Origin: Fragilariopsis cylindrus CCMP1102
Lineage: Eukaryota; Bacillariophyta; Bacillariophyceae; Bacillariales; Bacillariaceae
Length of the DNA: 64,000 nucleotides
Reading direction: 5' to 3'
Assembly: GCA_900095095.1 (NCBI GenBank)
Contig: FMBT01000346.1
Coordinates: 1 to 64,000 of the forward strand
Within the stretch, counting starts at the first letter, position 1. Each line of letters begins with the position of its first letter. Shown here piece by piece: positions 7,757 through 62,512 of the stretch. The notes below the pieces were generated by a model. The model had not been told where the DNA came from and searched no databases. It was given only the letters and a program-made list of their open reading frames with translations. A program made the translations under genes and the position numbers.

Positions 7757-8316
7757 TTTATGGATATATTCTAATAAGATATGGGAATACCGAGAAGGGG
7801 GGGGGGGGGGAGAAGCATGAATACCTTTTATTTGGTTACATTGTGTACGTTGGTGTGGACAAAAATGATGTCGCACTAATAGCTAGCTAGTTATAAACAA
7901 TCAATCCATAGGTTGCGACTGAGACTTTATCTCGTCATGTCTTCTGGTTTGATTGTTGTGATCACTTTCTTTAATTTCGCTGATTCACTAAAACGAAAGT
8001 CAATATATCTACCTACTGTTAAATAGTTTCTAAAGATGTATATGATAGTTTTAAACGCTAGATCCAATATGCAATATAAATATACATTTGTGGATACTGA
8101 TAGGAGTGTCCTAAAACTAAGGTTAATGTATGGGTAATATATTTTGTGTAATATATATAATTATTTTCACCCATAGATCCCCCCCCCCCCCCCAATTTCA
8201 CTAGACACAATACAACATGAAAACTGAAAACCGACAAGGAAATTATTGCTTCGTGCGATTGGTTATTGGAAGTCAAAAGCAAACCTCTTCAAACGCTTCA
8301 AAATAGACACAATCCG
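7757..8316. other. Intergenic region with homopolymer runs
   Basis: Contains a G-run at about 7798-7810 and a C-run at about 8179-8193. Both are hard to sequence, and their lengths should not be trusted. No gene seen. Confidence 0.5.
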
Positions 8317-10111
8317 ATGATGAATGGTAACCAAAGGAAAAAGGATCCACAGTCATCGTTGTTGCCTGATGTTCAAGTCTTTTTGTCTCGACCATCCTAT
8401 CCTTTAGGAGGATCCGTTGTCGGCACTATATTGATATCACAACCGCGACATGACAACAACAACACTACGAAGACGTCTTATCCTAGTCTACGTTCGGTAT
8501 TAGAATCTGTAACGGTATATGTAGCAGGACATTGTAGGATAGATTCACGATGGCATTCCCTAGCGAATTATACGAAAATTTATGGAAAGATGCATCCGTA
8601 TTTACAACTTTTACAGGAACGTTTTGATGCAGACTTAATATCACAAAGTGAAGATACTGTTTGTTTTTGGGCGACGAATGGAATGGAGGTTCTAGACTTA
8701 ACCGAACGAATAGAAGGTGGACGATGGAATAATGATGACCTTCAACGTGGTTTGCATGAAGACGATGACTGTGATGACGACAACAACAATGAAATTGTAG
8801 CAACAAGGAGAAGGAGGACGACGACAACGACAAGAACAACAACGACGGTAACTTCAAAGATGATATTTTAGCATTTACCTTTCGAGCAGAAATTCCACCA
8901 AATTTACCGCATTCTGTCCACGCTACAACATGTCGATATTTTTATACAGCAAATTCTTAGTTAAAACTGCAACACAACAACAAATCTTAAAACGTACCTT
9001 TCAAGTGTATACAAAAAATAATAACTCTTATTATAATAATACTACCAATAAGAATAATAATAATAATAATAATCAGCAACATCAGCAAGAAGATGATTAC
9101 TATCCGAATACGATCAGTAGTGCACGTGTAAAGTTTGGTAATTGCTTGGGTATGGCACACTCTAATGGTTTACCATGTCATATATCTGCAACAGAAATAC
9201 ATCGTCCAAAGGATCAAATGATGGTCGTACAGAATCATTGTCTTCGACGACAACAACGAAGCAATGACGTGCAAACGTTACGAGTATCCAATGCCGCCGG
9301 TCGACCTGTCTGTGTTTTAACAGTGATCGGTTCACAAAGTCTTTCGCCTGGATCTCGGATACATCTTCAATGGGATTTCCCTAGTACAGAAAATTATTAT
9401 CATCATCAACAACAACAACACCAAACTGAAGAAAACGGTAGCAAAAAAAAGAACAATTATTGGATTCCCTGTCATCAAGTATGTGCATGTTTACAAGGTG
9501 AAGAATATGCTGTATATGAAGATGGAAGTAAAAAACGGACTCAATCATCTTTATTTGATACATGTCATGAATATGTCGATCCAGGTATAACAGATCGTGT
9601 CTCTACGACGTTATGGTTAAGTAGTAGTGGTGACAATAATAACAATAATAGTACCCCACCATGTGATTTAAAAACAGACGTTATGGAAGTTTCGACGTGG
9701 TGTCAAGTGGACATTACAGTCCGTGAGAATGAAAATGAAAATAATAATGTCAATAACAAGGGTGGTGGTGATGTAGAAGGAGGATACAATAATTTAAGTC
9801 TCAGAATACCCTGTCGTATACGGCACACTAATAGTAATTTAGATGACCAAGAAGAACAAGAGATGATGCAAGACAATTATGTACAGCCATTGAATGAATT
9901 ATTAAACAATAACAACAACGTGGAAGGAGGAGGAGAAAATCAAGAAATATATGCTAATTATGATATTCAAACAATATTATTTCCAACCAATGATATACTA
10001 TCCGATTTGAAAACAGTATCATTGGACATGGAAGAACGAGTTCGTAAAATAAAGGAATTGCCAATAGTACAATCGATCAAGGAATCAGCAGCACTGTCAA
10101 ATAATAAGTGA
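8317..10111 (+). CDS. RGP1: RGP1-like subunit of the Rab6/Ypt6 guanine-nucleotide exchange factor
   Basis: RGP1 pairs with RIC1 to activate Rab6/Ypt6 at the Golgi. About 598 residues. The first in-frame ATG is at 8317, followed by VQVFLSRPSYPLGGSVVGTI, the opening arrestin-like beta-strand of the family. Then come SVTVYVAGHCRID and DTVCFWATNGMEVLDL, ILAFTFRAEIPPNLPHSVHA plus CRYFYTAN (the family's receptor-like sandwich), and VSNAAGRPVCVLTVIG with LSPGSRIHLQWDFP. A C-terminal region STWCQVDITVRE with IPCRIRH follows. Asn- and Gln-rich spacers coded by AAT/CAA repeats separate the strands. The frame breaks twice (between 8790 and 8860, and near 8950), but homology runs through. It converges with the gene ending at 10236. 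Confidence 0.72.
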
Positions 10112-10235
10112 AGTAAATAGGCATGTTACCATTACAATGATATCATATATCATAATTATTTCCTGCTATAATAGAACGATACTATATAGTTTTGTCATTT
10201 ATTTTTATTTTAATGTACATATTTTTCTAGACCTT

Positions 10236-10889
10236 TCACAACAAATTTATATGGACTCCAGCATTCTTTACAGTTCGTATACAGAACATAGGACTACTGA
10301 ATCCATCATGCTGTTCCAATGGATATCCTTCACCAATACGGATTCGTTTGGACGGACTAGTCGTCTCAACAGTCTCTCCATCAGTACTACTACCAGCACT
10401 AACACTACCCTTCAGTGTAACGTAGGCAACATCCCCATCAGGTGCCATAAATTCAACTAATTCAACTTCGTTAGATTTTAATTTTGTATTAAAGTCTTTA
10501 TATGATATACTTGGTTCATTTAATGTACTGGCATCTAAACCATCATATTCGCCACCACGATAATTAAAAGCAAGTCCATTAAATGCATTCACCACAACAC
10601 CATCTCGCATTTCAGTTTGTTGTTCTGCAAAAGCTATTCCTGGCATACTGATCAAACATGTAGCTGATGCTGCTACTGAACCACCAACCACACCCATCGA
10701 TTTGAAGAATGAACGACGATTGCTTGTAATAGTAGTAGTACTACTACTACTACTTGTCGCACTGGATCTTGTCGACAAACCATGAACGACAAAAAGATTG
10801 GTCGAGCAGCAGCATACCGCAATTGCTACTAGTGCTAGTAGCAAGACGGTGACATGGCTATGGGATGCTGAAGATGATTGGTGGAACAT
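10236..10889 (-). CDS. Predicted thylakoid-lumen protein with FtsH-N-like domain
   Basis: 217 residues. The start is the ATG at 10889. Residues 1-33 form an ER-type signal peptide (VTVLLLALVAIAVCCCSTNLF) ending near VVHG-LS. A Ser/Thr-rich transit-like stretch follows, then a second hydrophobic segment behind two Arg (NRRSFFKSMGVVGG) ending in ISMPGIAFA-E. This three-part leader is what a protein routed through the four-membrane plastid and then to the thylakoid lumen by the Tat or Sec route would carry. In the mature part, SYKDFNTKLKSNEVELVEF and VAYVTLKG recall the N-terminal domain of FtsH proteases, but no ATPase or protease domain is present. The end (RIRIGEGYPLE, FSSPMFCIRTVKNAGV) looks well ordered. 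The function is unknown. Confidence 0.75.
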   Translation of the reverse strand: MFHQSSSASHSHVTVLLLALVAIAVCCCSTNLFVVHGLSTRSSATSSSSSTTTITSNRRSFFKSMGVVGGSVAASATCLISMPGIAFAEQQTEMRDGVVVNAFNGLAFNYRGGEYDGLDASTLNEPSISYKDFNTKLKSNEVELVEFMAPDGDVAYVTLKGSVSAGSSTDGETVETTSPSKRIRIGEGYPLEQHDGFSSPMFCIRTVKNAGVHINLL

Positions 10890-11155
10890 TGTCAAAAGTC
10901 ACAAATCTGGGAATTATTATACGGTTGATAATAGATGGTGTTGTAATGAGAAATGAAAAGAAAATGCGAAGATGCCATCTTGTGTTCTTGAACGTAATCT
11001 TTTAAATCGAGAAAAGAATGATTCTTTAAAATGCGTTCTCCCACGAGTCCCGCGGGTCTCAATTTAAGAGTTCTTGTTTTTCTTTTCTTGTAAGGGATTT
11101 TTTGTAAGCCTAGGAAAACTTCATTAAAGGAGACCGGTAATGGATATCTATCAAG

Positions 11156-11452
11156 ATGACGGAAGGAAAAAAACAGAAAAAAGGAGTGCAGCTCACTCAT
11201 AGCGAGACTAAGGAACGCAACTTATTGTTGAAGAAACTCGAAAAAAATGGAGGTTTTGATAGGTGCGTTATGGTACAGTATTCGTCGCGTCGTTGTTTTT
11301 CTTGTAGAGTTTAGCTAAAGTCGTCCCGTCCCGTCCGGGATGTTGTTAGACTATTTGTTTTTTCTTTGAATAAGAAATGACAATTCGTACATAAACAAAC
11401 AACGATCTCATCATAAGATTTTTATTCCTCTATCTCTTGCTCCCTAATAATG

Positions 11453-11485
<33 letters not shown>

Positions 11486-11770
11486 TTACTAAGATTGAAA
11501 AAATCCGCTTATGCACGACTTATGTTAAATGGATGGAGGGATGAAATCAAACAACATACTCGTGAGGCTCTTAATAGAAGTAATGGTGGAACTGATAGTA
11601 TCGATGAAATTACTCTTGATGAATTATCCGCAACAATCGTGGACAATAGTGTTGGTTCCGTTCCAGTCTTATCGATTAAAGATGAATTTTCTTTTAAAAT
11701 ACGACAATCTTGCGGTTATAATGATACTGATCAACAACGACAACAACAACAACAACACCAACAACGGTAA
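11156..11770 (+). CDS. ENY2: ENY2/Sus1 homologue (SAGA deubiquitinase module and TREX-2)
   Basis: ENY2/Sus1 is a small helical protein shared by the SAGA histone-deubiquitinating module and the TREX-2 mRNA-export complex. Two exons: 11156-11262 and 11494-11770. Joining AG with A makes an Arg codon and gives LKKSAYARLMLNGWRDEIKQ, matching the conserved L(R/K)xxLxxxGWxDxxK of the family. Then come ITLDELSATIVD and the V-P-x-x-x-K-x-E helix (SVPVLSIKDEFSFKIR). The usual length is about 100 residues; this one is about 127 because of a Gln-rich tail. The intron ends in an ATA/AAT repeat, with a weak pyrimidine tract before the AG. The gene is divergent from the lumen-protein gene, with 266 bp between start codons. 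Confidence 0.82.
11448..11486. repeat. ATA/AAT microsatellite at the ENY2 3' splice site
   Basis: About thirteen trinucleotide units end a few bases before the acceptor AG of the ENY2 intron (11492-11493). Confidence 0.85.
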
Positions 11771-12994
11771 TGTAGTACTAGATACACAGGAAGATCGACG
11801 AAGGAGCGACCAAGTGCCATATTATCTTTCACTATGGGATTTCTTAACCTACCTTCATACATAAACCTATTTCTTCACAGATATCAATCATCAGAATTCA
11901 CATATCAAAAAGTATATACGATACGCTTACATTGTACACACGTTCGATTACATAAATCGTTGTTCGAATTCAATCAGTCAGCATTCCTCATTGATATGAT
12001 TATGCGAACGATGCATCTATACGGTAGCCGGTGTTATCACATTGAAAGAATAAAAAGCGAAGACCTTAAAGTATACCAATAAGAGAACATGTAACACACA
12101 GCTAACGATAGAATTCAAACAAACAACAAAAATGTACAGGTTTCTTCTGTCAAAAGATCAAAAATTAAATTTAAAAAACTACATTACATTATGTGCTTGA
12201 TGAATGTCTGTTATTCATCTTACTAACTACTTTGAGAAATCTTGTCCGGTCAAGTGCTCGACTATACAGTAACTTGTTTACTTTTTAATTATGATATAAT
12301 TATTTTTATCTTTGAAGTTTATTTTTATTTGCTATGGTAATCCATGGACGCGAAGGCGGTATATAGAAAAAGGAATTAGCCACCAAACTAGATTATCACA
12401 AACATAGATAGATTATTTTTGTGGTTAGTTACTTGACTTTATTTGTGCCGCGGCACATATTTACAGCACATTTACAGAACATAGTTAGTTTCTTTTTATT
12501 CAATGACATCATAGGTCTGACTTAAACTTGTACTGTATCATATGAATTGGATGTAAGATCCATATGAATCTTTTCCTCGGTACATACCTCGTGCGCGTCT
12601 CGCGCAATATTAAAAAAATTGCGTGCTAATTAAAAAAAGATACCACTTGAGCACCCTTCCATCACATGCATTCCACATAATCAACACATCATCGTCATCA
12701 TCTCTCTTGATTGCTAACTCATTCATATTTAAATGTTGTGTTTAATTAGCAAGAAGGTACAAGTAGTTGTCCAATCTGACTAGTTAGCTGTACATCGGCA
12801 CAAACTCAAGAATAGAAATTCTGCCGCTGTTAATCATCGGCATTCCCAAACCACAAATTAACATACTTGTTCAGCAAAGGTGAAGAGAGAGAAGCTTTCA
12901 ACAAATTCGTAGCTTCGAAAAAATCGTCGTGGAAGTTGTCGTATTCACCACACTAATTAGATACTTCTTCCCATTTAATCATCAATAATCAATC
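11771..12994. other. Intergenic region without a recognisable gene
   Basis: About 1.2 kb. Short open frames (for example 11834-12082) have no recognisable motif. It should contain the ENY2 3' end and the promoter of the ABC transporter. Confidence 0.5.
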
Positions 12995-15900
12995 ATGAGA
13001 CTACAAAATAGCGGATGTCACAATTTATTATTCTGCCATGGTAGACCGATCGCCGCTACGATGATACTTTATTTTTCTTGGCGGCGATCGGAAACGACGT
13101 CGTTTCACCTTTCGGTAGCACTGCCGATGTGGGAAGGCAACAACAGCGCCCAATACCATCGACGACAAAAACGACGACAACGACTACTACTGTCTCAGCA
13201 GCAGGAACGGCTTCTAAATCAACTCTTTTTCGAAATGGTCCTACTAGTAGCCGCCACTCAATTGCCACACTACAAGCAGTAGCATCAACAGTAACAGCAG
13301 AAGGAACGGAGGAAAAGAAGAATCACAAACCTACTTCCCTATTTCGACGAATCCTTTGGAATGCTAATCCTCTCGCAGGACGGAAAGATGATCGTTGGAA
13401 GGGTGGAGAATCTACAGCAACAATCGCATCTCGTCTCGTTTTCAGTTACGTTTCTCCCCTTCTGGACATAGTTGACGACAATAACAAAAGCAACAAAGAT
13501 AATAACAAAATACTCGGACGTTGACTGAAGAAGACGCTTTCGATTTATCCAAGGGACATCGATCGATGGATAAAGCTGTCGATGCTTTGGCTGAAACATA
13601 CGATCGATCTAGAATCAAGGCTGGACGACGTCTAGAAGAAAAGCGACAAGAACAACAACAGCAACAAAGTAATAACAGAAGTGGTAGCAATAATAATGAA
13701 GTAATAAAAAATTCTCAATCAATGATTTTATTGAAAGCATTGGTACGAGATCAGAAATCTATTCTTGTGTTAACAGGTGTTCAACGGCTCTTAAATACTT
13801 GCATCCAAGCATTTCCGAGTATTCTAGTTGCACGGCTACTAAGATCCATGAGGCAGGGAATGCACAACCCATATCGCAATCTCTTAAGGCTGCAGCTCTT
13901 TTAGTTTCTGTTCTTAGTATCAAAATGATCACAGAAAACCTATTCTTTCACAATGTGGTAAATATGTCGACACAAGTCCGTGGTGCATTGGAAGGATTAA
14001 TCTTCGATAAGTCGTTAAGACTTCCTGAAGGTGGTAGTGGAGTTCAAACAAAACAAAAAAGCGGTGGTACTAAGGCTTCGGATCGGGTGGGGTAAGTAAA
14101 ATGCAACTTATTTATGTATATGTATATAGATGTATTATAACATCAAGGAGGAAAAGTAACTGATATTTTTATGTTTCTAACGTATTCCCCCCTCCTTCGT
14201 GTCTCTGATTTAGGTATTGAATTTGATGCAGAGTGATGCGGCAACAATCGAGGGGGCTGCGATGCAGCTTCATACCTTTTGGGATGGTCCTTTGCAAATT
14301 TCCATATATACTTATCTTCTTTTTCAATATATCGGACCATCGGTTGCTTGGGGCCTTGCCGTACTACTAACCGTCATTCCACTGAATAGTATAACGTTAA
14401 GAATATTGGATCGCTTATCGCAGAAGGAAAACGAGGCCAAAACTGCTCGGACGAAACGAACCAACGAAAGCATCACGCAAATGAAATTGTTGAAGGTGCA
14501 GGGGTGGGAAAAAACATTTGCGAACGACGTCGATGCTCACCGACGTGAGGAACTAAATATTCATCGGATGAGAGGTGTTGTGAGAGCTTTCAATTCTGCT
14601 TTTTCCAATGCAGTCCCATCGTTGGTATTAGTCGTCACGTTGACTGCCTACGCAAAAACAGGCAATCCCATCAAAGCAGTACGATTTTTACCGCGATATC
14701 GCTTTTCAATCAATTGCGCTTCCCACTGTTTTTTTACCCTATGCTTTTAGATTCGTTGGCCAGTGCGAAGATCTCGATGCGTAAGATTGCTTCGTATTTA
14801 ACTTCGGAAGAAATTACTCCATACGTCCAAATTCTATCCCCAAAGGATGATGGCGGGGGTCAAATTGAGATGAAAGATGGTAGTTTTCTTTGGTCTACAT
14901 CGAATCAAATTGAAGATGGGGAAGTTGCACCGCCAAACTCTCCGGCATTATGTGGCGTGAATCTCAAAGTAAATCCTGGAGAAGTTGTAGCGGTAGTGGG
15001 TTCCGTCGCAAGTGGTAAAAGTGCACTCATTAAAAGCCTCCTGGGGGAGTTAACTCCTGTCCCCAGAATCGTTGTTGATAATAAGAATGGTGCTGCTACC
15101 AATTCGTCACAAACCGATGAATTGATGAATCGGCCACAAGTTACTGTGCATGGTAATATTGGATACTGCTCTCAGGAAGCATGGATCCCGAAAGGAACTC
15201 TCAAAGAAGCAATTGTATTTGGGAGAGAATACGACGAAACACGATACCAACAAGCAATCTTCGATGCAGGTTTGGACCAAGATTTGGCAGACGGAACATT
15301 ATTCTCAGAAATAGATGTGGGCGAAAAAGGAGGAAGTTTATCAGGAGGACAGCGTGCTCGAGTGGCATTGGCTCGTGCACTATACGGGGATGAAAATACT
15401 AAAGTGTTCCTTCTCGACGATTGTTTGGCAGCTCTAGATGCGAGAGTTGGATCTCTTGTTTTTGAGCGAGTAACCAAACGAGCGAAAGCCTCCAAGGCAG
15501 CGTTAATTCTAGTCACAAATGACCCATCGTTACCGAGACTTTGTGATCGGGTTATTCTGATGGGGCCGGTAGACAGTCAAAATGGCAGTTTGCCTTCTCA
15601 GGAATCTAGCTGTTCAACAATAATTGACACTGGAACGTACGATCAATTGTTATCTCGGGGACACAAGCTCCAGAGAAACATTGACGATGATACCAAAGAA
15701 CATGATGAGGATGCTTCTCGTATATTGGATCAAACAGAGATTAAACAGAATTACAATCAAACCGATACGATTCGGGTCGTAGGAGGTTACAAGGTGATGA
15801 ATACCGACTGTTCTTGTCATGCCGATCCTGACTTTGACGTTGATGTAAAGAACAATCCGGACTTCATTGCAGAGCATGTTATTCCGCGCGAGATTGATGA

Positions 15901-17983
15901 CATCGATTTGGAAGATACCGAAACAAATTCCAACTCAACTACGTCTACTGTTTCCCATTCTAAGTCACCATCAAGGGCAAATGGTCTACTTTCAATAGAT
16001 GATGGAATGAATACCCAAGCTGTACCCATATCGACATACGTTGGGTACTTAAAAGCTGTTGCTAGTCCGTCTCTGATCATTGGAGCGTTAGCATCATTTC
16101 TAGTTGCCGACGGTGCCAAATTCTTTCAGCAATACACGGTCGCTAAGTGGACAGAATTGGCTGCTGACTCGTCATCATCTATAGCAGCCGCGATGGGAAG
16201 TAAATACTTAAGTAACATCGTTTACGCTGCTGGTGTTCTTTCTGTATTCCTTTGGCTTCGGAGCTTCCTTACGATGCATGTTGGATTACGGGCATCTACT
16301 TTCTATCACAACCGAATGCTTTCTTCTGTGTTTCGTGCTCCAATGTCATTCTTTGATTCAACCCCATCGGGCCAAATTTTGTCACGTTTTGGCAAGGAGC
16401 TAGAGACAGTTGATCGTGCTCTCCCAGAAAGCATTGCGAGCGTTCTTTTCTGTTCTTACAGATCATGAGCTCTGTCTTGGCGTTATCAGGTGCCATATCT
16501 CCTGCTATGATGATACCAATAACATTTGCTGGAGGTATGTATCTACGGATAATGAAACGATTCCGTCCAGCCGCTCGTGATATGAAACGAAATGAGCAGC
16601 GAACAAGATCACCTATCTTCACACACTTCGGTGAGGCACTTCGTGGCACAGAAATTATCCGCTCGATACCAGGGGCTAAACGCACGTGGTCAGGTCGACA
16701 TCGAAAATTAGCAGATGTGAACTTGTCTGTCTTTTCAACCGTCAAAGCACTCGGTAAGTACAGCTTTTTAGATTTAATACACAGTAATCAACGTCACATT
16801 TTTGCCTCTAACACGTAATTCTTTTTCCTCTCCTTCCCGGTTAGACCGTTGGCTATCCATAAACTTGGAGGCAATTGGCAACACCATGGTGTTCGTAACA
16901 TCATTGAGTTGTGTTTTCCTAACAAGGTCTGGCAAGCTTCAATCTGGTGCGGCAGCTTGGGGACTTACGCAATCTCTGGCCATCACTGGATTGATGGCAT
17001 GGGCTGTTAGGAATCTTACCATGCTCGAGTCACACATGATGAGTGTGACACGAGTAAGCGAGTTAACCGATATTGATACTGAGAATGGCAGTAAGGACGA
17101 TACAAAGAAGAAGTCTGCAATCCCCAGGGAAATGGATAAGGCTGGCGATGCACTGAAAGTGAATTTTCCCCCAAAACTGAATTTGAGTCCGTCTCCTGTC
17201 ACAGAAAACGCATTGGTAGCAGATGGTTGGCCATGGCGTGGTGGAATAGAATTCAAAAAAATATCAATGAGGTACAACCCATCATCACCGTTGGTCTTAA
17301 ATCAGGTGACATTATCCGTGCCTCCCGGCAGTACTTTGGGAGTCGTAGGCCGAACAGGTAGTGGAAAGAGCAGTCTGCTTTTATCTCTGTTTCGTATAGT
17401 AGAGATCGAATCAGGAGGAAGTATTGAAATCGATGGCGTCGACGTTCGCTCAGTGTCTATGGAAAGCCTACGTGATAGCATTGCTATCATTCCCCAAGAT
17501 CCAACTCTCTTCGCTGGGACTTTGGCATTCAACCTTGATGCGAAAGGCAAGGCCACACCAGAAGATATGTGGAAGGCATTGGAAGCTGCCTCTCCAGACT
17601 TAGTTCGACAATTCAAGGCTCTTGGTGGACTCGAGACTGAAATCAGTGAAGATGGTGGAAATTTGAGTCAAGGCCAGCGGCAATTAATTTGTTTAGCAAG
17701 GGCTATGCTCAAGAATAGCAAAATCCTAGTTCTCGATGAAGCGACCAGCTCGGTTGATGCACAAACTGATCAACAAGTACAAAATACAATTCGCAAACAA
17801 TTCGTAGAAAAGGGAGTTTCTGTCATAACAGTTGCGCATCGACTGGATACTGTCTTGGGATGCGACAAGATTGCTGTGTTAGGTCAAGGTGAGCTTATTG
17901 AGTATGATTCTCCGTCTAATTACTTAAGATTAGAAATGGCGAATTCCGAAGCCTGGTCGATGCCGACCGAGCAAACAAAATGA
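12995..17983 (+). CDS. ABCC-type full ABC transporter (MRP family), frame interrupted
   Basis: An ATP-driven exporter of organic anions or conjugates with layout TMD1-NBD1-TMD2-NBD2, about 1,590 residues. NBD1 (14860-15680): Walker A GSVASGKSAL, signature LSGGQRAR, and Walker B VFLLDDCLAALDA with Asp in place of the catalytic Glu, a normal ABCC feature that makes site 1 weak. NBD2 (17250-17930): GRTGSGKSSL, LSQGQRQLICLARA, ILVLDEATSSVD and H-loop VAHRLD. TMD1 includes LRLPEGG and the family's VLNLMQSDAATIEGA; TMD2 includes LPESIASV and SIPGAKRTW. Introns are 14092-14213 and 16754-16844. About six one-base breaks occur (near 13076, 13520, 13853, 14091, 14676 and 16455). At 14088-14091 the exon ends with four G where five would keep frame. 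The N-terminal 100 residues are low-complexity and the start is uncertain. The substrate is unknown. Confidence 0.85.
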
Positions 17984-18082
17984 GGGGTAGTAAGCAGACG
18001 ACCAGTAGTAAGCAGACGACTAGAGTATAGTATACCATCAAAATTAAAGATTTACTATTTTTTTCTTCTTCTCAAGTTAGAA

Positions 18083-21000
18083 CTACTTGTAGCCATCTAT
18101 GTTCTTGCAGACCATAGACGATTTCCGCCGGGGCAACCTAGACAGAGATTCCCCCCATCTCTTGACGTCGTCATCATCGTCAGGTGCATGATCAAGCAGC
18201 TGTTTAAGGTAAGAAGCAGACTGTTTTGCTCCTTCTGTATCACCTGAATCTAGTCGCGAGGAAATAGCGGACGATTGGAGCTCGGTTGCAATCTTGACAA
18301 TTTTGCTTGACTCTGGAGCTGACAAGGCAACTTGAGCGTACCTTGTGGCCATGTTCCCCAAGACGCTATTTGACATGGCTTGGCGTTTCAAAAATTCAGT
18401 AAATGCTTTGAATCTGCGTCAAGCGGTGTTCGCAAACATCTATGCAAGTTATAAGCGTGAGGATGGAGCTCATAGAATGCCACCGTATGGTCGGGTGTAT
18501 TCGAATTCATCTTATCGTCTGTTTGGGCCGTCTCCACCATAATATCATTTAATTGATGCATAATTTGGTCCCCACCGGGATGGATGGGACTTACATGGTT
18601 GAGATCAATGATAGTACCTCCGATTTGACTTAATAAGTTACTGTCTTTAGTCAATGTCTGTGGAACTCCGTAGGATTCGCAGTGTATTCAAAATTCATTC
18701 CATTTGATTCAGTGAAAGTTTGCAATGGTATAATTGCACTCTTCACTCCGCCGCAGCAATAGGCTAAATTTAACCCATCACTCTTATATGTTTCAAATAT
18801 CCTGCTTTGAAATGATTCGCATTCAAAGTAGTAGGCAGAAATCTTTCGTCGTCGTAAAACCGTTGTCTCTTCAAACGCTCCATTACGAATGCTATAGCGC
18901 ATGGGACAGTTACGTCTACTCCGATCTCCGGAAATATAACCCACAACTATGGAGCCAGGGTTCATTGCAGTAAAGTCTAGCCAGGTTTGAGAGTTACACA
19001 TGAACATGTCTGATGATCTACATTGATGAATAATTGTATATGATCCTGAACGAGAACCTATCGAGTCGACTAATCCCACAAAGGGCGATATCCCTGTTCC
19101 AGAGGCAATGCAGACCAAATTAACATCCTTCGGTGGAACCAAGAAAAACGTAGCTGGAGAAAACGAGCAATGGACCTTCGTAATTTTTGGGTCACTCATT
19201 GCAGAATACCCATGATGGCGAGCCCCGTCATCTGGTTTCGAGACAAGTAGAAATACTCTATCAAGTTCGACCCCCGACACCGAGTAGACACGGGGAGAGA
19301 CAGGTTCAAGTGATACAATTTTTTCCTTTGGGATCAGGGGTGGATCAGCAAAGATCTGCCCTTTTCTCTTGCTACTCAAATCAAGAGGAGAGTGAACCCA
19401 ACGCGGCTTATTAGACGACTCATCTCGAATTTTTCCTTGCTCAATATATCGAGCAATCAATTCCAGTGGCACCCCCTCACCACCATTTTTTTCGAATCGA
19501 AACCAGCCTAGTGCTTCATACAGCTTATCCCACCCCAACCATTGCCATTATTTTTGTGCAATTTCAGCATGTCTTCTAATTTAAAAAACTCTTGCTCCAT
19601 GCATGCTAACGAATGCAGCCAAGAACTCGTAGGATTGTCACCATTTGGTAGTAATACTTTCACCACATCGCCATATTCATAGAGCAATCCGGAACCAGAT
19701 AAATCCAATGCTACTGTTGTAAAGCCTCCCGATTCACTAGTTGAATATATAATCTTGACCACCTCGCTCATGAGGGGCGGAAGGCGCAGTACCCATCTTT
19801 CATCCGATGCCATCCGCATGTGCTTGAACATCATTGCGGCAAACTTGTGATTATCGACAGCATTTGATGATTCGTTGGCGGCTGTGCCATGGGACAACCA
19901 GAAGTGACATGTTTTGATGATTCATTGCGGGCTGTGACATGGGACAACCAGAGGTGACATGTTTTGATGATTCATCGGCGGGCTGTGACATGGGACAACC
20001 AGAGGTGACATGTTTCGATGACTCATTGGCGGGCTGTGACATAGGACAACCAGAAGCGACATGGTGCTTTTGCCTGGAATCACTCTTTTCATCTTCAGCG
20101 AGGTGATTGGTACCGCTCGTTGACGATTGTACATTGTTGTGATGTATGAATAAAGTTTACGACTATGCGCTTGTAGCATACCTCCTTCACCAGCGTAGCA
20201 TTCGATTAAGTGATTGTATGAAGCCAGTAGATCCTTAGGTCGACCTAGAATATCAAGAATACCTCGAAGTGAAGCAGATTCTGTGAGTTTAGAGAGACAA
20301 CGAATAAATTCTCTTTGTGGTCTCGGGAAAGTTTCATCGACAGCTCCTACCGCCTCTACAAGCCCCCTATCCGTAGCTTGATCCTTTCTCTTATATTGAT
20401 ATCGACCCAGCACCCAATCAAGAAGATGAAAATAAGGAAACTGAGTACCTGTGGTACCCTTCATCGGTTTCGGTTCACCGCCCTTGGTTTTCCGAACGAG
20501 AACCCCATTAGAAAGCGGTTGGGTTTGCTTGATGGAAACGTATTTAGAATTGAAAGTCCTTTTAGCAGGATCGGTAGACATTTGTTGAAATTCTTCTTTA
20601 CATTTTGATAAGCTAAAGGCAACTTTGTAAAGCAAATCGTATAGTCGTTGAATTTCGTAATTGTCCGTGGAGGAGTCACCGTCATCATCTGGCATATTGA
20701 GTTCGGCCTCCACAACATTTCTCATAGCTGATATTATATCCAATATATCAAAGGGCAACGAGGATAGAGCAAAGCCCATACATGCTGGGACTAGTTGATT
20801 TATACGTTCGTGATTGTTACCAAAAGCGGGATACAACATCGTGATATTATCCAAATGGAATTCTATATCTTCCTCTACTCCCAGTACTGCATCATAAGAC
20901 TCTCCGTAGTCAGAGTACCGAAGATTTTCGTCAAGAAATTCTTCTGCCGAATCATGAACTGTACTGCTTCCGGAGCTCTCTAGACTGACAAATGATACTC

Positions 21001-22473
21001 TGCGCTTACTTATGTTGTATCCTCCAGCATCTCCTAAGGAAGATGAATACTTTTGCTCATCGACCATGGATCGAAAGACTTCAGTGAATCGATAAAACAA
21101 GTGCTGAAAGAGAACAAGTGATGTAAAATTATTAGCGACCAAGATAAAAATGAACTATAGGGCGCATTATACTCACGATGCAGTCAATTGTAGTTCTTCT
21201 ATTAGTGTCATCGAACAAATTTTTGTGGAGACATACCTTATCTTTGAGCAAATGATGTTTCTTTACATGCTTAAAAATATTTAATCGTTGGTTGATTGCT
21301 AGAGCAAGTCCTAGACAATCTTTACGGCTTGGTGCGCAATTATTTTCCATAAGTACATCAATTAATTGACTGCCGACGAAGCACCTTTTGTAGATTCGGA
21401 ACCCATATCGTCGATCTTTCACTTTGACGTATTTCATCGCATCAACGAGGGACATTGTTTCTTGCATGGATGTATGCCTATGTGCAACGATGCGGGAACC
21501 AGTATAAGATGATGACAATCGAGCTACGGCCTTCACATTCATCGAGGAGTTTGAATCGGAATTGTTGGGTTTCGAAGTCGTATTATCACTAGAACGTTGA
21601 TTGTTGTTGTCGTCGCCATTTTTAGTCTCAGGACCAAAAATAAAGCTTACGGAACGTTCTTTTCTTCCATCGTTCTCATTGCTTTCATCAATTACATTTT
21701 TACTTAATCGGCGTTTTGACAAAGCCGTAGATTTATTCTTAAGCACACCTCTCTCTCTTCTTGGGATGTTGATGTTGTTTCGTTGTTTTTCCACATCCAA
21801 TTTTCTTGTACCATAAAATGACCAGACAAAGTAGGTTCGATTTGTAGCCGCTTTGCTACCTCAATGAGTGGATCTTCGATCCAGTTAGGTAATCTGCAGT
21901 CTTGGGTCCGTTTGGTGCTGAATTACCGTATAGGTGACTTAATGTTCCTAATAATAAAAATATACGAGCTGCATCTCGATAATCATGATAATCTTCTTCC
22001 AACAAATTAACACACGGTACAGGTTCTTCTTTTACATACAAATGCAACGGCGTATTTCCATATAGCTGCTCTCCTTCGGGTGGAAGATTCTTAACGAGGT
22101 TATAATCAGGTCGTCCGAAATCAGGTCCCTCCTCCATGGCCTCGTAACATTCGATCGGCCAAAAGAATGTTTTACAGTTTTGTAATTTAATTTCCCAAGG
22201 ATAGAATTTCCCCTTTAACGGTCCTCCAAGTCCACCAGGAGCTGTGAAGCCCCATTCACGTGTACAAAAACCGTATGTACCATGACGATGGGTTTGCAAC
22301 ACTGATTGTAGACTACTCTCTATGTCCGCTAAATTGGTAAGAATTTTCTGCAACGGATTAGATCTTTTTCTTCTTCTGCTGCTGCTCTCATTGTGGCGAT
22401 TAGCACCGTCCTTATCCTCATGATCGGTTTTCTTGTCTACTATGTATTCTTTTGAAGAGGCAATTGCGGTCAT
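18083..22473 (-). CDS. IDO-like dioxygenase / DEP / Cys-Pro repeat / FAD-NAD(P)H reductase / cytochrome b5 fusion
   Basis: One locus of about 1,440 residues; exons 22473-21177 and 21103-18083. Its domains in order are as follows. (1) IDO-superfamily N-half (about 22240-21790): ARIFLLLGTLSHLYG, LPNWIEDPLIEVAKRLQIEP. (2) DEP domain (about 21455-21060): GFRIYKRCFVGSQLIDVL and LFYRF, split by the intron. (3) IDO C-half (about 20900-20110): TQFPYFHLLDWVLG, PRPQREFIRCL, and LQAHSRKLYSYI, whose His fits the proximal haem ligand. (4) Four to five 17-residue repeats with SKHVTSGCPMSQPA (20065-19862). (5) CPR-like FAD domain (LSGSGLLYEYGDVV, PRVYSVSG) and NAD(P)H domain (ASGTGISPFVG, YCCGG). (6) Cytochrome b5 (IIDLNHVSPIHPGGD and TPDHTVAF supply two candidate haem His). 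(7) Helical tail. No flavodoxin domain is seen. About eight one-base breaks interrupt it. The Arg expected at the IDO distal site is not evident, so tryptophan oxidation is not proven. Confidence 0.75.
19862..20065 (-). repeat. 51-bp coding minisatellite (Cys-Pro repeats)
   Basis: Four to five near-identical 51-bp units in tandem, each encoding 17 residues with K-H-V-T-S-G-C-P-M, between the IDO-like and reductase domains. One unit is a base shorter than the others (near 19926-19930), which breaks the frame and is probably a miscall. Each unit presents one His and one Cys-Pro pair. Confidence 0.85.
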
Positions 22474-23535
22474 GACAAAATGCGCATGCAGAAATACTTG
22501 AGAAGAAAGTAATGTGGAAGGGGGAAGTTGTCATTACAAAATTACTGTTTGTAATTCCTGGTACTTGTTACGATGCCGCCAATAAACTGTATTAATAGTA
22601 GGTACCAAACACGATCGATTGTTTTGTCGATGTAACACTAGCAGATTTTGTTCAATTTTTCAGAGACTGATGGATGATGACGATGCATTCATTTCTTTTT
22701 TCTTAAAACTCGAGGCTTTGCGCGACTCAATACTACGTATCTACTTAATAAACACATTTAATTATTATTGTTAAGTGTAACTGTTTCGAGTCATCATAGT
22801 AGTCTCATTTTAGATTTTACTTCTACTTTTTGTTTCGATGATTTCGTAGGATCTAAATGAGTATTTTGTACATATGAATATATATAGTATATTTTAGAAA
22901 AATTTTAGCAAGAATGATGAAAGATACAGCATCAATTGATCAAATTAATCGCTCTTAAGTATTATTTCTACATCGACTCTAACTTCACACATTAGATTGG
23001 AGACCCAATTTGTCGGTATTTTCTAAGTTCAGAATGAATGCTATGTTTTGTCATCATTGTTTTATCTTTTACTCTGCCCATTTTACTGTGCTACGAGTAG
23101 TTGTAGGGGGACCTAAGTTAAAGTTGGGTGCTAGATTTTTTATCTTATTGGTTATAGGATTTGGGATTTGTATCTTGTATTATTATCATTTAATACGTTA
23201 TAATACCTTTTGCGATTTCTAGTGCAGATCTCTATGAATGATACGATGATTGGATAATATTTTAGGATTGGTCTATTAAAAAATTTCAATACTCAAATCT
23301 ACGTACAATGCTCAATGTGGATATTCTGGTAGGAAAGATCTGAATCTTATTCTTTTTAGAGTGTACAAAATACGTAGTCCAAAATATTTTTCTCAACCAG
23401 AATATCACTTGATTTTACACCAAAATCTGTAGGAGTATACATTATTAAGAAATATCCGTTATAGTGCAAATGAATTCTTATTCAAATAACGATCTGTAGG
23501 ATGTATACTTGACAATTTCTCAGGTATGATACGGG
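22474..23535. other. Intergenic region without a recognisable gene
   Basis: About 1.06 kb and AT-rich. Upstream region of the leftward fusion gene and of the rightward membrane-protein gene. No coding pattern seen. Confidence 0.5.
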
Positions 23536-24387
23536 ATGATTATGCTTGCCATGATAATGAAAACATTTGATACCAAGAATGAAGTTGTGCTGATGATATG
23601 GATCGGTGTAAAGCTAACTATCTTTTTCAGGAGGAAGTTCGACTTTATGGAAAATAAAGTGTGCCATCTTCTCAATCCTATGTGGATTGGCGGCATACTA
23701 ATACTACTTGGCATCAGTAACGAAGATGTCGATTGGATTCAAATCATGCACAAAGGATTCCTTGTAGTATCTGTCATTTATGATATGTGTTTCTGTCTAG
23801 TATCTATAGAGGAAAAGATAAAAGCAGTATTCTTAACTTTTTCATTGTACCTTGCCATCTTGGGATCAATTACTGTTTTATGTTGGATCTCTACCTGTGT
23901 CATTGCAACCATACGGCTATTACGGTGGCCATCTGCGTTAAAGGTCTATCTGCGAACGCCAAGGACGATATGCGGTCCGAGCTATTCAATTCTTCTCATT
24001 GCTGCATGTTATAAAGATTTAGAAGTTGTCATGACAAGCTTCATTTGGCTACCAACCTTGTTGGAGATTGCATCAGTCTCATCATTTGTTGCAACTATGT
24101 TCTTTCGACCCGACAACCATAGCATATACATGTTGCTATTGTCTCTGAAACAACGACGACAAACTTTGGTTCCTGACAATGATAATAACAACAACAATAA
24201 GAAGAATCATAAGTTTATTCACGCGGGGTTGATGGTATTAAGTCACATCATGTGTATGATTATCGAGTCTTTTACTATGGAATATGATTATCCCTTTCAC
24301 TTTCTTGGGATCGTCTCCATTACGATGAGTTCTTTGGGGCTTTTCTGTGGTACGACTTTTGTGTTAACTCTTTCCAATCATATCTAA
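23536..24387 (+). CDS. Multi-pass membrane protein of unknown function
   Basis: 283 residues. I do not recognise the family. About seven hydrophobic helices are visible: MWIGGILILLGIS, GFLVVSVIYDMCFCLV, VFLTFSLYLAILGSITVLCW, YSILLIAACY, LLEIASVSSFVATMFF, GLMVLSHIMCMII, and LGIVSITMSSLGLFCGTTFVL at the C-terminus. An Asn-rich loop (DNDNNNNNKK) sits before helix 6. There is no signal peptide beyond the first helix and no catalytic motif. The first ATG of the open frame is used; an in-frame ATG near residue 38 is also possible. Expression is not certain. Confidence 0.5.
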   Translation: MIMLAMIMKTFDTKNEVVLMIWIGVKLTIFFRRKFDFMENKVCHLLNPMWIGGILILLGISNEDVDWIQIMHKGFLVVSVIYDMCFCLVSIEEKIKAVFLTFSLYLAILGSITVLCWISTCVIATIRLLRWPSALKVYLRTPRTICGPSYSILLIAACYKDLEVVMTSFIWLPTLLEIASVSSFVATMFFRPDNHSIYMLLLSLKQRRQTLVPDNDNNNNNKKNHKFIHAGLMVLSHIMCMIIESFTMEYDYPFHFLGIVSITMSSLGLFCGTTFVLTLSNHI

Positions 24388-24484
24388 AATAATCTAAAAC
24401 CCTATACTTCTCTATCTAAAGCCTCTCACGCAAAAGAATGTACACTGTGATCGTATAACACCTGATAACGGAACGTTGAATTAT

Positions 24485-24522
24485 GTATATATATATACAT
24501 ATATACATATATACATATATTT
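24485..24522. repeat. TA/TACATA microsatellite
   Basis: An AT-rich alternating tract between two convergent genes. No function is suggested. Confidence 0.7.
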
Positions 24523-24646
24523 TTCTAATATTTTAATATGGTTAAGTTGTTTCTGATTATAAATATACAATTTGTTTATAATTATTATGAACACACCGAG
24601 TCAACTACATCATAATCATACTACGGTAGTTTTACTGTTTATTTAT

Positions 24647-26229
24647 CTAAGCCTTGTAAGCTGGATCCCAAATCCATAAATTGATAAGCCACTTTTCTCC
24701 ACGGATAACTGGTTTGGCAGAATGCTGGGAAAAATCATCCATATTCCCATCTGGCAATTGATCATAGAATAGAATTGCTTTGCCTGCCTCGGGCTTAACC
24801 TTTAAGTCATGGAATGTTTTTCCATTGATATATCGAGGAAATGCTGTTTCGCCTCCAACCAATCCATCATGTTCATCATTTAAATAAAATAAGATCGTAG
24901 CGAAACGAGCAGCTTGCATGTTGTCATCAATATGAGAATATCCAAAGTCATGATGAGCTGTATACTCTTGCGTGGGATCATAATGGACCAATTGGAGTGT
25001 TTCCGCAATGGATCTCTTGCCATCAAATTCAGGAATTTCTTCCTCACTACGAGTTCTCATCAATGCTTCGTCGATTCTAGTCAAGTCAGCAGCTCGACGG
25101 TAAACAGCATCCAAGATAGGTGACTTTTCTCTTGCAACCCACGAATTTTTACTAGTCCTAACTTTAGTCTTCCTTTCGACTTTAGTGTCTGGATTTTTAC
25201 CATTAGAGTTACTTCCCACATCTCCTGTGGTAGATTCACTAAGTTTAATCCCTCCCGCAATTTCAATGATATGATCGATTTCCTTTTCCGATAAAAAGTT
25301 ACGAATTTCAAAGACACGGGGAGCACATGAAAGTACTGTTAGTGTCATGTTCATAGAATCGTGTGGTACATTATTTTCATCCTTGACACGATAATCTGCA
25401 AGAAATCTTGGTTCCGATTCCTTTAAAATTCGTTCTGAACCGTTCAAGGTAACACGTCCCAACTCTTCTGAGGGAGGCAATCGGTCAAAGTGTGTCTCCT
25501 TGGTTGTTACCCAATGTTCTTGTCCAAAATAATCAGCTCTCCACATAAAATGATTTGTTGGTGTACGAGGTCCATTGTCATCGAAATTAGAAGATATGAT
25601 CGACCAGTAAATGCACTGTATTGTTCATTAAATAGAAGTGTCTTTGTCCATTTATCGTATCGTGATCGTTCCTTTTCGTTAAGATGCTCTTTAAGATTCT
25701 TTTCCGTCTGTATTGGATCATCATCTACAAAGTACGGGTCAAACACGTATATGTTATCAGGATAATCTCCGACCACGAAAGTGACCAATTGGTTGTCGGG
25801 CTCGTCTTTTGGTGTAAAGTAAAATCTGTGTGTGGGGAAGGTTCCTGTTCCACCAGTAGAGAATGGATCATAATGACGCATCAAATGTGCTGGTCCATTC
25901 TTATAACTCTCCCAGTAAAAGTCAACATGACGATTAGACATGTTGATGAATTTTCCCGCTAGGCCATTAAATTTTGGTTCTACCCTGCTATACCCACTAT
26001 CACTTTGATAGAATGTATTGACATCTGGTTGAACGTATGCCATGAAAGATTTCGGACCGTCACCAACGTCATACGTAAATTCTTTTAATGCTGGATCCTT
26101 CTCTTCTGCGTCCAGTAAAGAACAAGTCGGTGACGACACCTCCTGCTCTGCTCGTACAACTACATGATGAGGTTGTAGCAGTAACGATGTAGCGTAAATC
26201 ACGAGGACTAAGAGAACAAACTTTGCCAT
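24647..26229 (-). CDS. Secretory prolyl 4-hydroxylase with VHL-like N-terminal domain
   Basis: A 2-oxoglutarate/Fe(II)-dependent prolyl 4-hydroxylase, about 527 residues. The start at 26229 precedes a signal peptide (FVLLVLVIYATSLLL); an ATG 51 bp further upstream is possible. The catalytic domain is C-terminal: VFEIRNFLSEKEIDHII, LQLVHYDPTQEYTAHHDFGY (iron-binding HxD), FATILFYLNDEHDGLVGGET, the second iron His in DDFSQHSAKPV, and the 2OG-binding Lys in GEKWLINLWI. Residues about 75-170 read KFINMSNRHVDFYWE ... THRFYFTP ... VFDPYF, resembling the beta-domain of von Hippel-Lindau protein, which in animals binds hydroxyproline. One frame break lies near 25600. It probably works in the ER/Golgi on wall or secreted proteins. 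Confidence 0.8.
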
Positions 26230-62430: not shown

Positions 62431-62435
62431 GACAC

Positions 62436-62467
<32 letters not shown>

Positions 62468-62512
62468 ATCAATTGGGTTTATCCCGCGTAGGTTCGAGTC
62501 CTGCCGGTGTCG
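62431..62512 (+). tRNA. tRNA-Ser (anticodon AGA)
   Basis: 82 nt, no intron. Acceptor stem GACACCG (62431-62437) pairs with CGGTGTC (62505-62511), with discriminator G at 62512. The anticodon arm ATTGA-CTAGAAA-TCAAT (62457-62473) gives AGA at 62464-62466, reading UCU (and UCC/UCA once A34 is deaminated). The long variable arm (about 62474-62489) is the class II feature expected for Ser. The T-arm contains GGTTCGAGTCC. CCA is not encoded, as is normal for nuclear genes. Confidence 0.96.

Follow-up and report, generated by a model that had tools for sequence, protein, structure and literature searches.

A putative self-reducing haem oxygenase built on an indoleamine 2,3-dioxygenase fold in the diatom Fragilariopsis cylindrus

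The stretch of DNA analysed here (the window) comprises the first 64,000 nucleotides of contig FMBT01000346.1 of Fragilariopsis cylindrus CCMP1102. Its minus strand carries a gene in which an indoleamine 2,3-dioxygenase (IDO) fold is joined to a flavin reductase module and a cytochrome b5-like domain. The gene begins with an ATG at 22473 and ends with a stop codon at 18085-18083, and in that direction it encodes the IDO N-terminal part, a DEP domain, the IDO C-terminal part, a set of Cys-Pro repeats, FAD and NAD(P)H domains, the b5-like domain and a C-terminal region. There is no single open frame across the locus, as the pieces are separated by one intron (21236-21101) and eight frame changes; the read-through protein referred to below was made by joining the pieces over these eight changes (1,411 codons). 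The features are as follows:

18083-22473, minus strand: whole gene from ATG to stop, with one intron and 1,411 codons over eight frame changes
21895-22473, minus strand: piece e1, N-terminal part of the IDO fold, with the motif REWGF
21755-21892, minus strand: piece e2, end of the IDO N-terminal part (LPNWIEDPL...HFMVQENW); scores 17.2 bits with Pfam IDO when taken alone, under the cut-off
21237-21752, minus strand: piece e3, insertion within the IDO fold, consisting of a linker and most of the DEP domain (DEP at 21428-21237)
21101-21236, minus strand: intron (GT...AG, 136 bases) within DEP, recognised from the sequence and from homologue P0001, whose protein runs on there
20147-21100, minus strand: piece e4, end of DEP, an acidic linker and the large, haem-binding IDO domain from LYPAFG (~20833)
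20162-20164, minus strand: predicted proximal haem-ligand His (AHSRKL)
19863-20063, minus strand: tandem array (period 51 bases, 4.0 copies) encoding 17-residue SGCPMSQ repeats, probably at the JK-loop position
19778-19852, minus strand: last helix of the IDO fold (helix K, NHKFAAMMF...), starting just past the place of GTGG in canonical IDOs (approximate)
19120-19775, minus strand: CPR/FNR-type FAD-binding domain and connecting part, with RVYSVSG at ~19292 (approximate boundaries)
18690-19119, minus strand: NAD(P)H-binding domain, with GTGISPF at ~19100 and CCGG at ~18758 (approximate boundaries)
18410-18650, minus strand: probable divergent cytochrome b5-like domain, with the HPGG His at ~18582 and a second His (ELHP) at ~18465
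18083-18406, minus strand: C-terminal helical region, also found in bacterial homologues between b5 and STAS

Related proteins were sought in three protein searches, each of which scored the 7,978 to 7,998 candidates sharing most words with the query, so that the counts are lower bounds. At least 43 related database proteins were found (P0001-P0043); the search with the read-through protein returned at least 34, and the third, with nine bacterial rows, returned 10 proteins, none of them new. All four motif tests were passed by at least 14 diatom and at least 8 bacterial proteins, the others being fragments or deficient in motifs, and these numbers rule out chance resemblance. Continuous diatom homologues include P0008 of Pseudo-nitzschia multistriata (1643 amino acids, annotated as a DEP protein) and P0013 of Seminavis robusta (1442 amino acids, annotated as a DEP domain-containing mTOR-interacting protein). 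The Nitzschia inconspicua homologue is annotated as a mechanosensitive ion channel, and Cylindrotheca fusiformis is also represented; members of the family are already in the databases, but unnamed or misnamed. P0011 (1129 amino acids), derived from MMETSP transcripts, has one DEP, the IDO C-terminal part, the reductase and b5 in one frame. A reading of the locus as two neighbouring genes or an assembly chimera is ruled out by the continuous homologues P0008, P0013 and the bacterial open reading frame (ORF) L015, and is also countered by P0011, continuous from DEP onward.

The first-pass annotation, made from the letters alone, had named the same elements in the same order on the leftward strand from 22473 to 18083, which the translated pieces, Pfam scans and profile comparison bear out. 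It had further proposed a single fused polypeptide with DEP inserted in the IDO fold, and a search of other diatoms for the same domain order. The order recurs in the 14 or more diatom proteins just mentioned, each with two DEPs, and the insertion is kept in other diatoms; the fusion stands, being continuous in diatom and bacterial homologues, while the window itself lacks one open frame. Its placing of the Cys-Pro repeats between the IDO and reductase modules has to be revised, as described below.

P0031-P0033 look bacterial and carry IDO, reductase and b5 in one protein without a DEP. The C-terminal end of P0031 and P0032 is a STAS domain, and P0033 stops short of that point; STAS was matched in six of the ten rows called bacterial (P0031, P0032 and P0035-P0038), and Pfam gave no STAS match in P0039 or P0040. 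Genome contigs were also scanned and yielded two loci. One, L014, is in a record titled Gammaproteobacteria (Loclat bin); the other, L015 (7938-11339), encodes a 1133-residue protein flanked by ORFs that look bacterial by eye. The L015 record is titled as a Klebsiella pneumoniae metagenome-assembled genome, a doubtful name. P0035 is identical to L015 over the part searched and occurs on contigs, the longest of which has 513,936 bases. In the order around the L015 genome, 293 genomes were searched and two gave a match, the L015 source genome and, in part only, one other; the bacterial form therefore seems to be rare. Diatom and bacterial members share the helical region after b5, in which no Pfam family scored over its cut-off (window 18406-18083; P0035 residues ~896-1001). 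An unrooted tree of 34 core sequences, which left out ten rows without end motifs (P0015, P0020, P0025, P0026, P0028, P0029, P0030, P0034, P0042 and P0043), separated 10 bacterial from 24 diatom rows by a branch with 100/100 support, the bacterial label of some rows being an assignment made in this analysis. The window sequence has diatom proteins as its closest homologues: it is the sister of P0005, and the adjoining P0010 is from Bacillariaceae sp. A viral origin was rejected: 19 stretches of viral contigs fitted a pattern and none encoded a relative, and the reductase-b5 model had no viral fold match at E <= 0.001.

The read-through protein scored 43 bits with the Pfam IDO family (PF01231; cut-off 26), and the cut-off was also exceeded by P0031, P0032, L015 and P0037-P0040. 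Structure models of relatives contain the whole IDO fold with both of its domains, the outcome of a check that the first-pass annotation had named; for each model, a single domain took up all the fold matches listed. The proximal haem His is kept in all 40 rows with a letter at that position, of 41 aligned. The same annotation had doubted the distal Arg, and fairly so. At the site of IDO1 R231 the profile-profile alignment places Gln (QP for RP) and the HMMER alignment to IDO1 gives His or Tyr, while the site read without a gap holds Arg or Lys in 39 of 39 rows with a letter. The Gln of the Gln-Pro in this region is present in 38 of 39 such rows, with the Arg/Lys one helix turn off. The alignments leave more than one candidate residue for the Arg231 position.

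The DEP domain (PF00610) scored 47.6 bits in the read-through protein (cut-off 32.7), and its insertion point appears to be close to where the small and large IDO domains meet. A single DEP is present in the window copy, against two in all 14 diatom proteins passing the four motif tests and none in the 10 bacterial rows; it seems that the first DEP either disappeared in the window lineage or is lacking from both copies as assembled. The best solved match of the inserted DEP region is the pair of tandem DEPs of DEPTOR (7owg, E 5.5e-21 with the family profile; 7ped, E 7.8e-11 with the read-through protein). No other part of DEPTOR was found, however, and here the DEP sits within an enzyme fold, in the window as one copy. 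Elsewhere in the same genome (G000:C79:221696-223513), six DEP matches in a row mark a protein with a tandem DEP array. The Cys-Pro repeats are located past the proximal-His helix and ahead of the helix that ends the IDO match; match ranges and the profile alignment suggest that they occupy the JK-loop position of the IDO domain, rather than a stretch between modules. They are absent from the bacterial P0031-P0033 and from several diatoms.

The reductase module is less easily seen by Pfam. NAD_binding_1 scored 13 bits on the read-through protein (cut-off 22) and FAD_binding_1 14.4 bits on its own piece (cut-off 32.3), but NAD_binding_1 was over the cut-off in the bacterial P0032 (26.4 against 22). 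In the model of the diatom homologue P0043, which is 79% identical to P0005, the FAD and NAD(P)H domain fold was found by fold match, and in that model the assignment to the NADPH-cytochrome P450 reductase (CPR)/FNR type is secure by fold. The R, Y and S of the RxYS motif are each invariant in the 40 rows with a letter, and the read-through protein has CCGG. Pfam scans covering the read-through protein and 14 homologues matched no FMN/flavodoxin family.

The domain that follows is probably a divergent cytochrome b5, judging from profile comparisons. A profile of this region matched 34 PDB entries, 32 of them cytochrome b5 or b2 and the other two STAS proteins of lipid transporters. Profile-profile comparison (hhalign) against nine b5 sequences of the diatom's own genome (drawn from twelve b5 loci, three of which yielded none) gave a score of 29.4 and an E of 1.9e-4, compared with a maximum of 18.0 and a mean of 10.9 in 60 column shuffles. 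At each of the two axial positions 38 of the 41 rows have a letter, and all of these have His, although for the second His the truncated P0034 row is unreliable.

The favoured reading, held with moderate confidence, is that the gene encodes a self-reducing haem oxygenase on an IDO fold. It is supported by the IDO and reductase folds in relatives, the domain order, the conservation, the open frames of relatives and the exclusively synonymous substitutions between two copies of the gene (see below). The IDO-fold domain would bind haem through the conserved proximal His. With haem and flavin loaded, electrons would pass from NAD(P)H to FAD, then to the b5 haem and on to the IDO haem, all inside one chain: the CPR-type reductase, which has no FMN domain, would hand them to the fused b5, which would thereby fill the one-electron carrier role held by FMN in CPR and reduce the IDO haem to the ferrous state, allowing O2 to bind. 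With the DEP domain probably near the IDO domain junction and the Cys-Pro repeats probably in the JK loop, the lid of the active site, both are well placed to gate that site, and may do so in response to a membrane, a partner or a redox or haem cue.

Several observations count against this reading. The window copy is broken in frame, and the fold models come from relatives. The tryptophan-binding GTGG motif occurs in all five canonical bacterial IDOs but in none of the 42 members, counted as the read-through protein plus 41 database proteins that carry the proximal-His motif. In Foldseek the reductase model gave low TM-scores, 0.31/0.35 for its best match. The b5 family itself (PF00173) was hit in one of six slices, at 11.7 bits against a cut-off of 23.7, and a genome search with it matched 34 places, none on contigs C706 or C387. 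The best PDB match of the b5-region profile had an E of 0.046, not significant alone, the hhalign probability was just 47%, and the b5 part has a pLDDT of ~53-78 in both structure models. The two b5 His residues are ~35-38 residues apart, whereas the classical spacing is about 24. Finally, CPR with b5 yielded no product with the IDO relative PrnB, according to the part of PMC11791213 consulted.

How the electrons would be used bears on the chemistry. The overall reaction of IDO1 is redox neutral and an electron is needed just to start it, as stated in an excerpt of PMC13142367, so a dedicated FAD and b5 chain for every molecule would suggest that electrons are used at each turnover, as in a monooxygenase. 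More tentatively, then, the family may form a separate class of NAD(P)H-driven oxygenases on a His-ligated IDO fold, in which the P450-reductase plan evolved independently; such enzymes could be monooxygenases of a non-tryptophan substrate, with DEP or STAS as switches and the Cys-Pro repeats as a haem or thiol sensor that opens and closes the active site.

The fusion could instead be a haem-based sensor, its IDO domain sensing O2, NO, CO or redox state, the reductase keeping the haem ferrous, and DEP (in diatoms) or STAS (in bacteria) relaying the signal. The attachment of two unrelated regulatory domains in two lineages, the loss of the GTGG substrate motif and the resemblance of the Cys-Pro repeats to haem-regulatory motifs all fit this idea. 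It is nevertheless rather improbable, as the conserved NAD(P)H/FAD module suggests turnover, a sensor would need no dedicated two-step electron chain, and P0039 and P0040 show no STAS match.

The first-pass annotation had proposed a self-sufficient IDO-type dioxygenase. The self-reducing chain survives as the best reading of sequence and models, but the evidence points away from tryptophan. An otherwise ordinary tryptophan/indoleamine 2,3-dioxygenase, whose reductase and b5 merely prime the haem and whose product is N-formylkynurenine, is distinctly improbable, given that GTGG is lost in all 42 members and that the Arg231 site gives Gln, His/Tyr or a gapless Arg/Lys depending on the alignment. 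Six-frame searches of this genome (a 68 Mb assembly of 818 contigs) found no match to TDO or kynureninase, absences that are suggestive only, since such searches can miss intron-split genes; quinolinate synthase had one match. Such a pattern would be expected of organisms that make NAD by the aspartate route, as diatoms appear to do according to an extract of PMC4217691. The sole match of the IDO family in the genome search was the second copy of the fusion gene, just under the cut-off. The substrate is probably not tryptophan, or not tryptophan alone.

A flavohaemoglobin-like NO dioxygenase, or another NO-handling enzyme with an IDO fold in place of the globin, would share the flavohaemoglobin plan of a haem domain and an FNR-type reductase, but the b5 domain is foreign to that plan and this alternative is very unlikely.

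The frame changes of the window copy were compared with a second copy of the gene. Contig C387 is 99% identical to the window over 17 kb (window ~8008-25038) and is probably the other haplotype. Seven of the eight frame changes are common to both copies, one is found in the window only, and C387 has one extra of its own. The change between e2 and e3 sits in a poorly conserved linker and could instead be a short intron. By comparison, HSP70 matches in the same assembly were mostly open (32 of 35 without an internal stop, three full length in one frame, and contig C693 with one overlapping frame change), so the fusion locus is worse than the assembly average. The 1,411 codons read contain no internal stop, and none of the six substitutions between the window and C387 changes an amino acid in the frames read, an outcome with a probability of 7e-4 for independent, unselected substitutions (two of the six lie close together). 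P0005 (979 residues) stays open through a region containing six of the eight frame changes. Its identity to the window is 99.6% over 285 residues and 100% over 108, the two segments that align cleanly, and it has three Cys-Pro repeats against four in the window. Because P0005 is open over six of the changes, the substitutions are exclusively synonymous and intact copies exist, the eight frame changes are read as probable sequence errors and not decay. A decayed pseudogene, with the working fusion surviving in related species, might be suggested by the shared frame changes and the better state of the HSP70 matches, but is extremely unlikely in view of the synonymous substitutions, the stop-free codons and the near-identical P0005, open over six of the eight changes.

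The family resembles IDO1 and IDO2 (PF01231) in the whole fold and the proximal His. It differs from them in lacking GTGG, in an Arg231 position that is not clearly kept, in the fused reductase and b5, in the DEP inserted in diatoms and in the long JK loop with Cys-Pro repeats of some diatoms. By description, not by sequence comparison, it can be likened to PrnB, TyrH, SfmD and MarE, His-ligated haem-dependent aromatic oxygenases that belong to the IDO superfamily by fold. The excerpt of PMC11791213 consulted ranks PrnB and IDO among the most closely related members of that superfamily and, in contrast to what is seen in the diatom protein, mentions no reductase fusion for these enzymes. The FAD and NAD(P)H fold and motifs resemble those of CPR, the sulfite reductase flavoprotein and the FAD module of methionine synthase reductase. 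Unlike these CPR-type diflavin enzymes, the fusion has no matched flavodoxin (FMN) domain, and b5 comes next instead. The b5-like domain shares an HPGG-type motif, a second His and the profile matches with cytochrome b5, but differs in its wider His spacing and its sub-threshold Pfam score. Self-sufficient P450s such as CYP116B46 also place a haem oxygenase and its redox partners in one chain (abstract of PMC7260179), whereas the haem domain here has a His-ligated IDO fold and b5 is the likely one-electron carrier.

No IDO-reductase, IDO-b5 or IDO-DEP fusion is described among the matches listed from the openly licensed PubMed Central literature, in keeping with the earlier impression that the architecture had no described counterpart. 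The combination of a haem oxygenase and a reductase in one chain is already known from the self-sufficient P450s; the version with an IDO fold, b5 and an inserted signalling domain seems to be undescribed. Which cellular reductant keeps IDO ferrous is an unsettled question. In the portion of PMC13142367 (a 2026 preprint) consulted, CPR with or without b5 is said to support IDO1 in vitro, its role in vivo being called unclear; work naming b5 as a major reductant in human cells is cited, and it is argued that hypochlorite can start IDO1 without ferrous haem. A natural IDO-reductase-b5 chain would be independent evidence for this pairing. As a single protein, it would make electron transfer to an IDO haem measurable, with differing regulatory domains in the two lineages, and if the substrate is not tryptophan it would represent a new enzyme class for oxidation chemistry.

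Next to the fusion gene, at 16414-17983, lies an ORF that by eye resembles an ABC transporter of C type (no family search was made). It points towards the fusion gene and stops ~100 bases from its stop codon, and its pieces also overlap in differing frames. The sole Rfam match over the gathering threshold in the window is a tRNA gene at 62431-62512.

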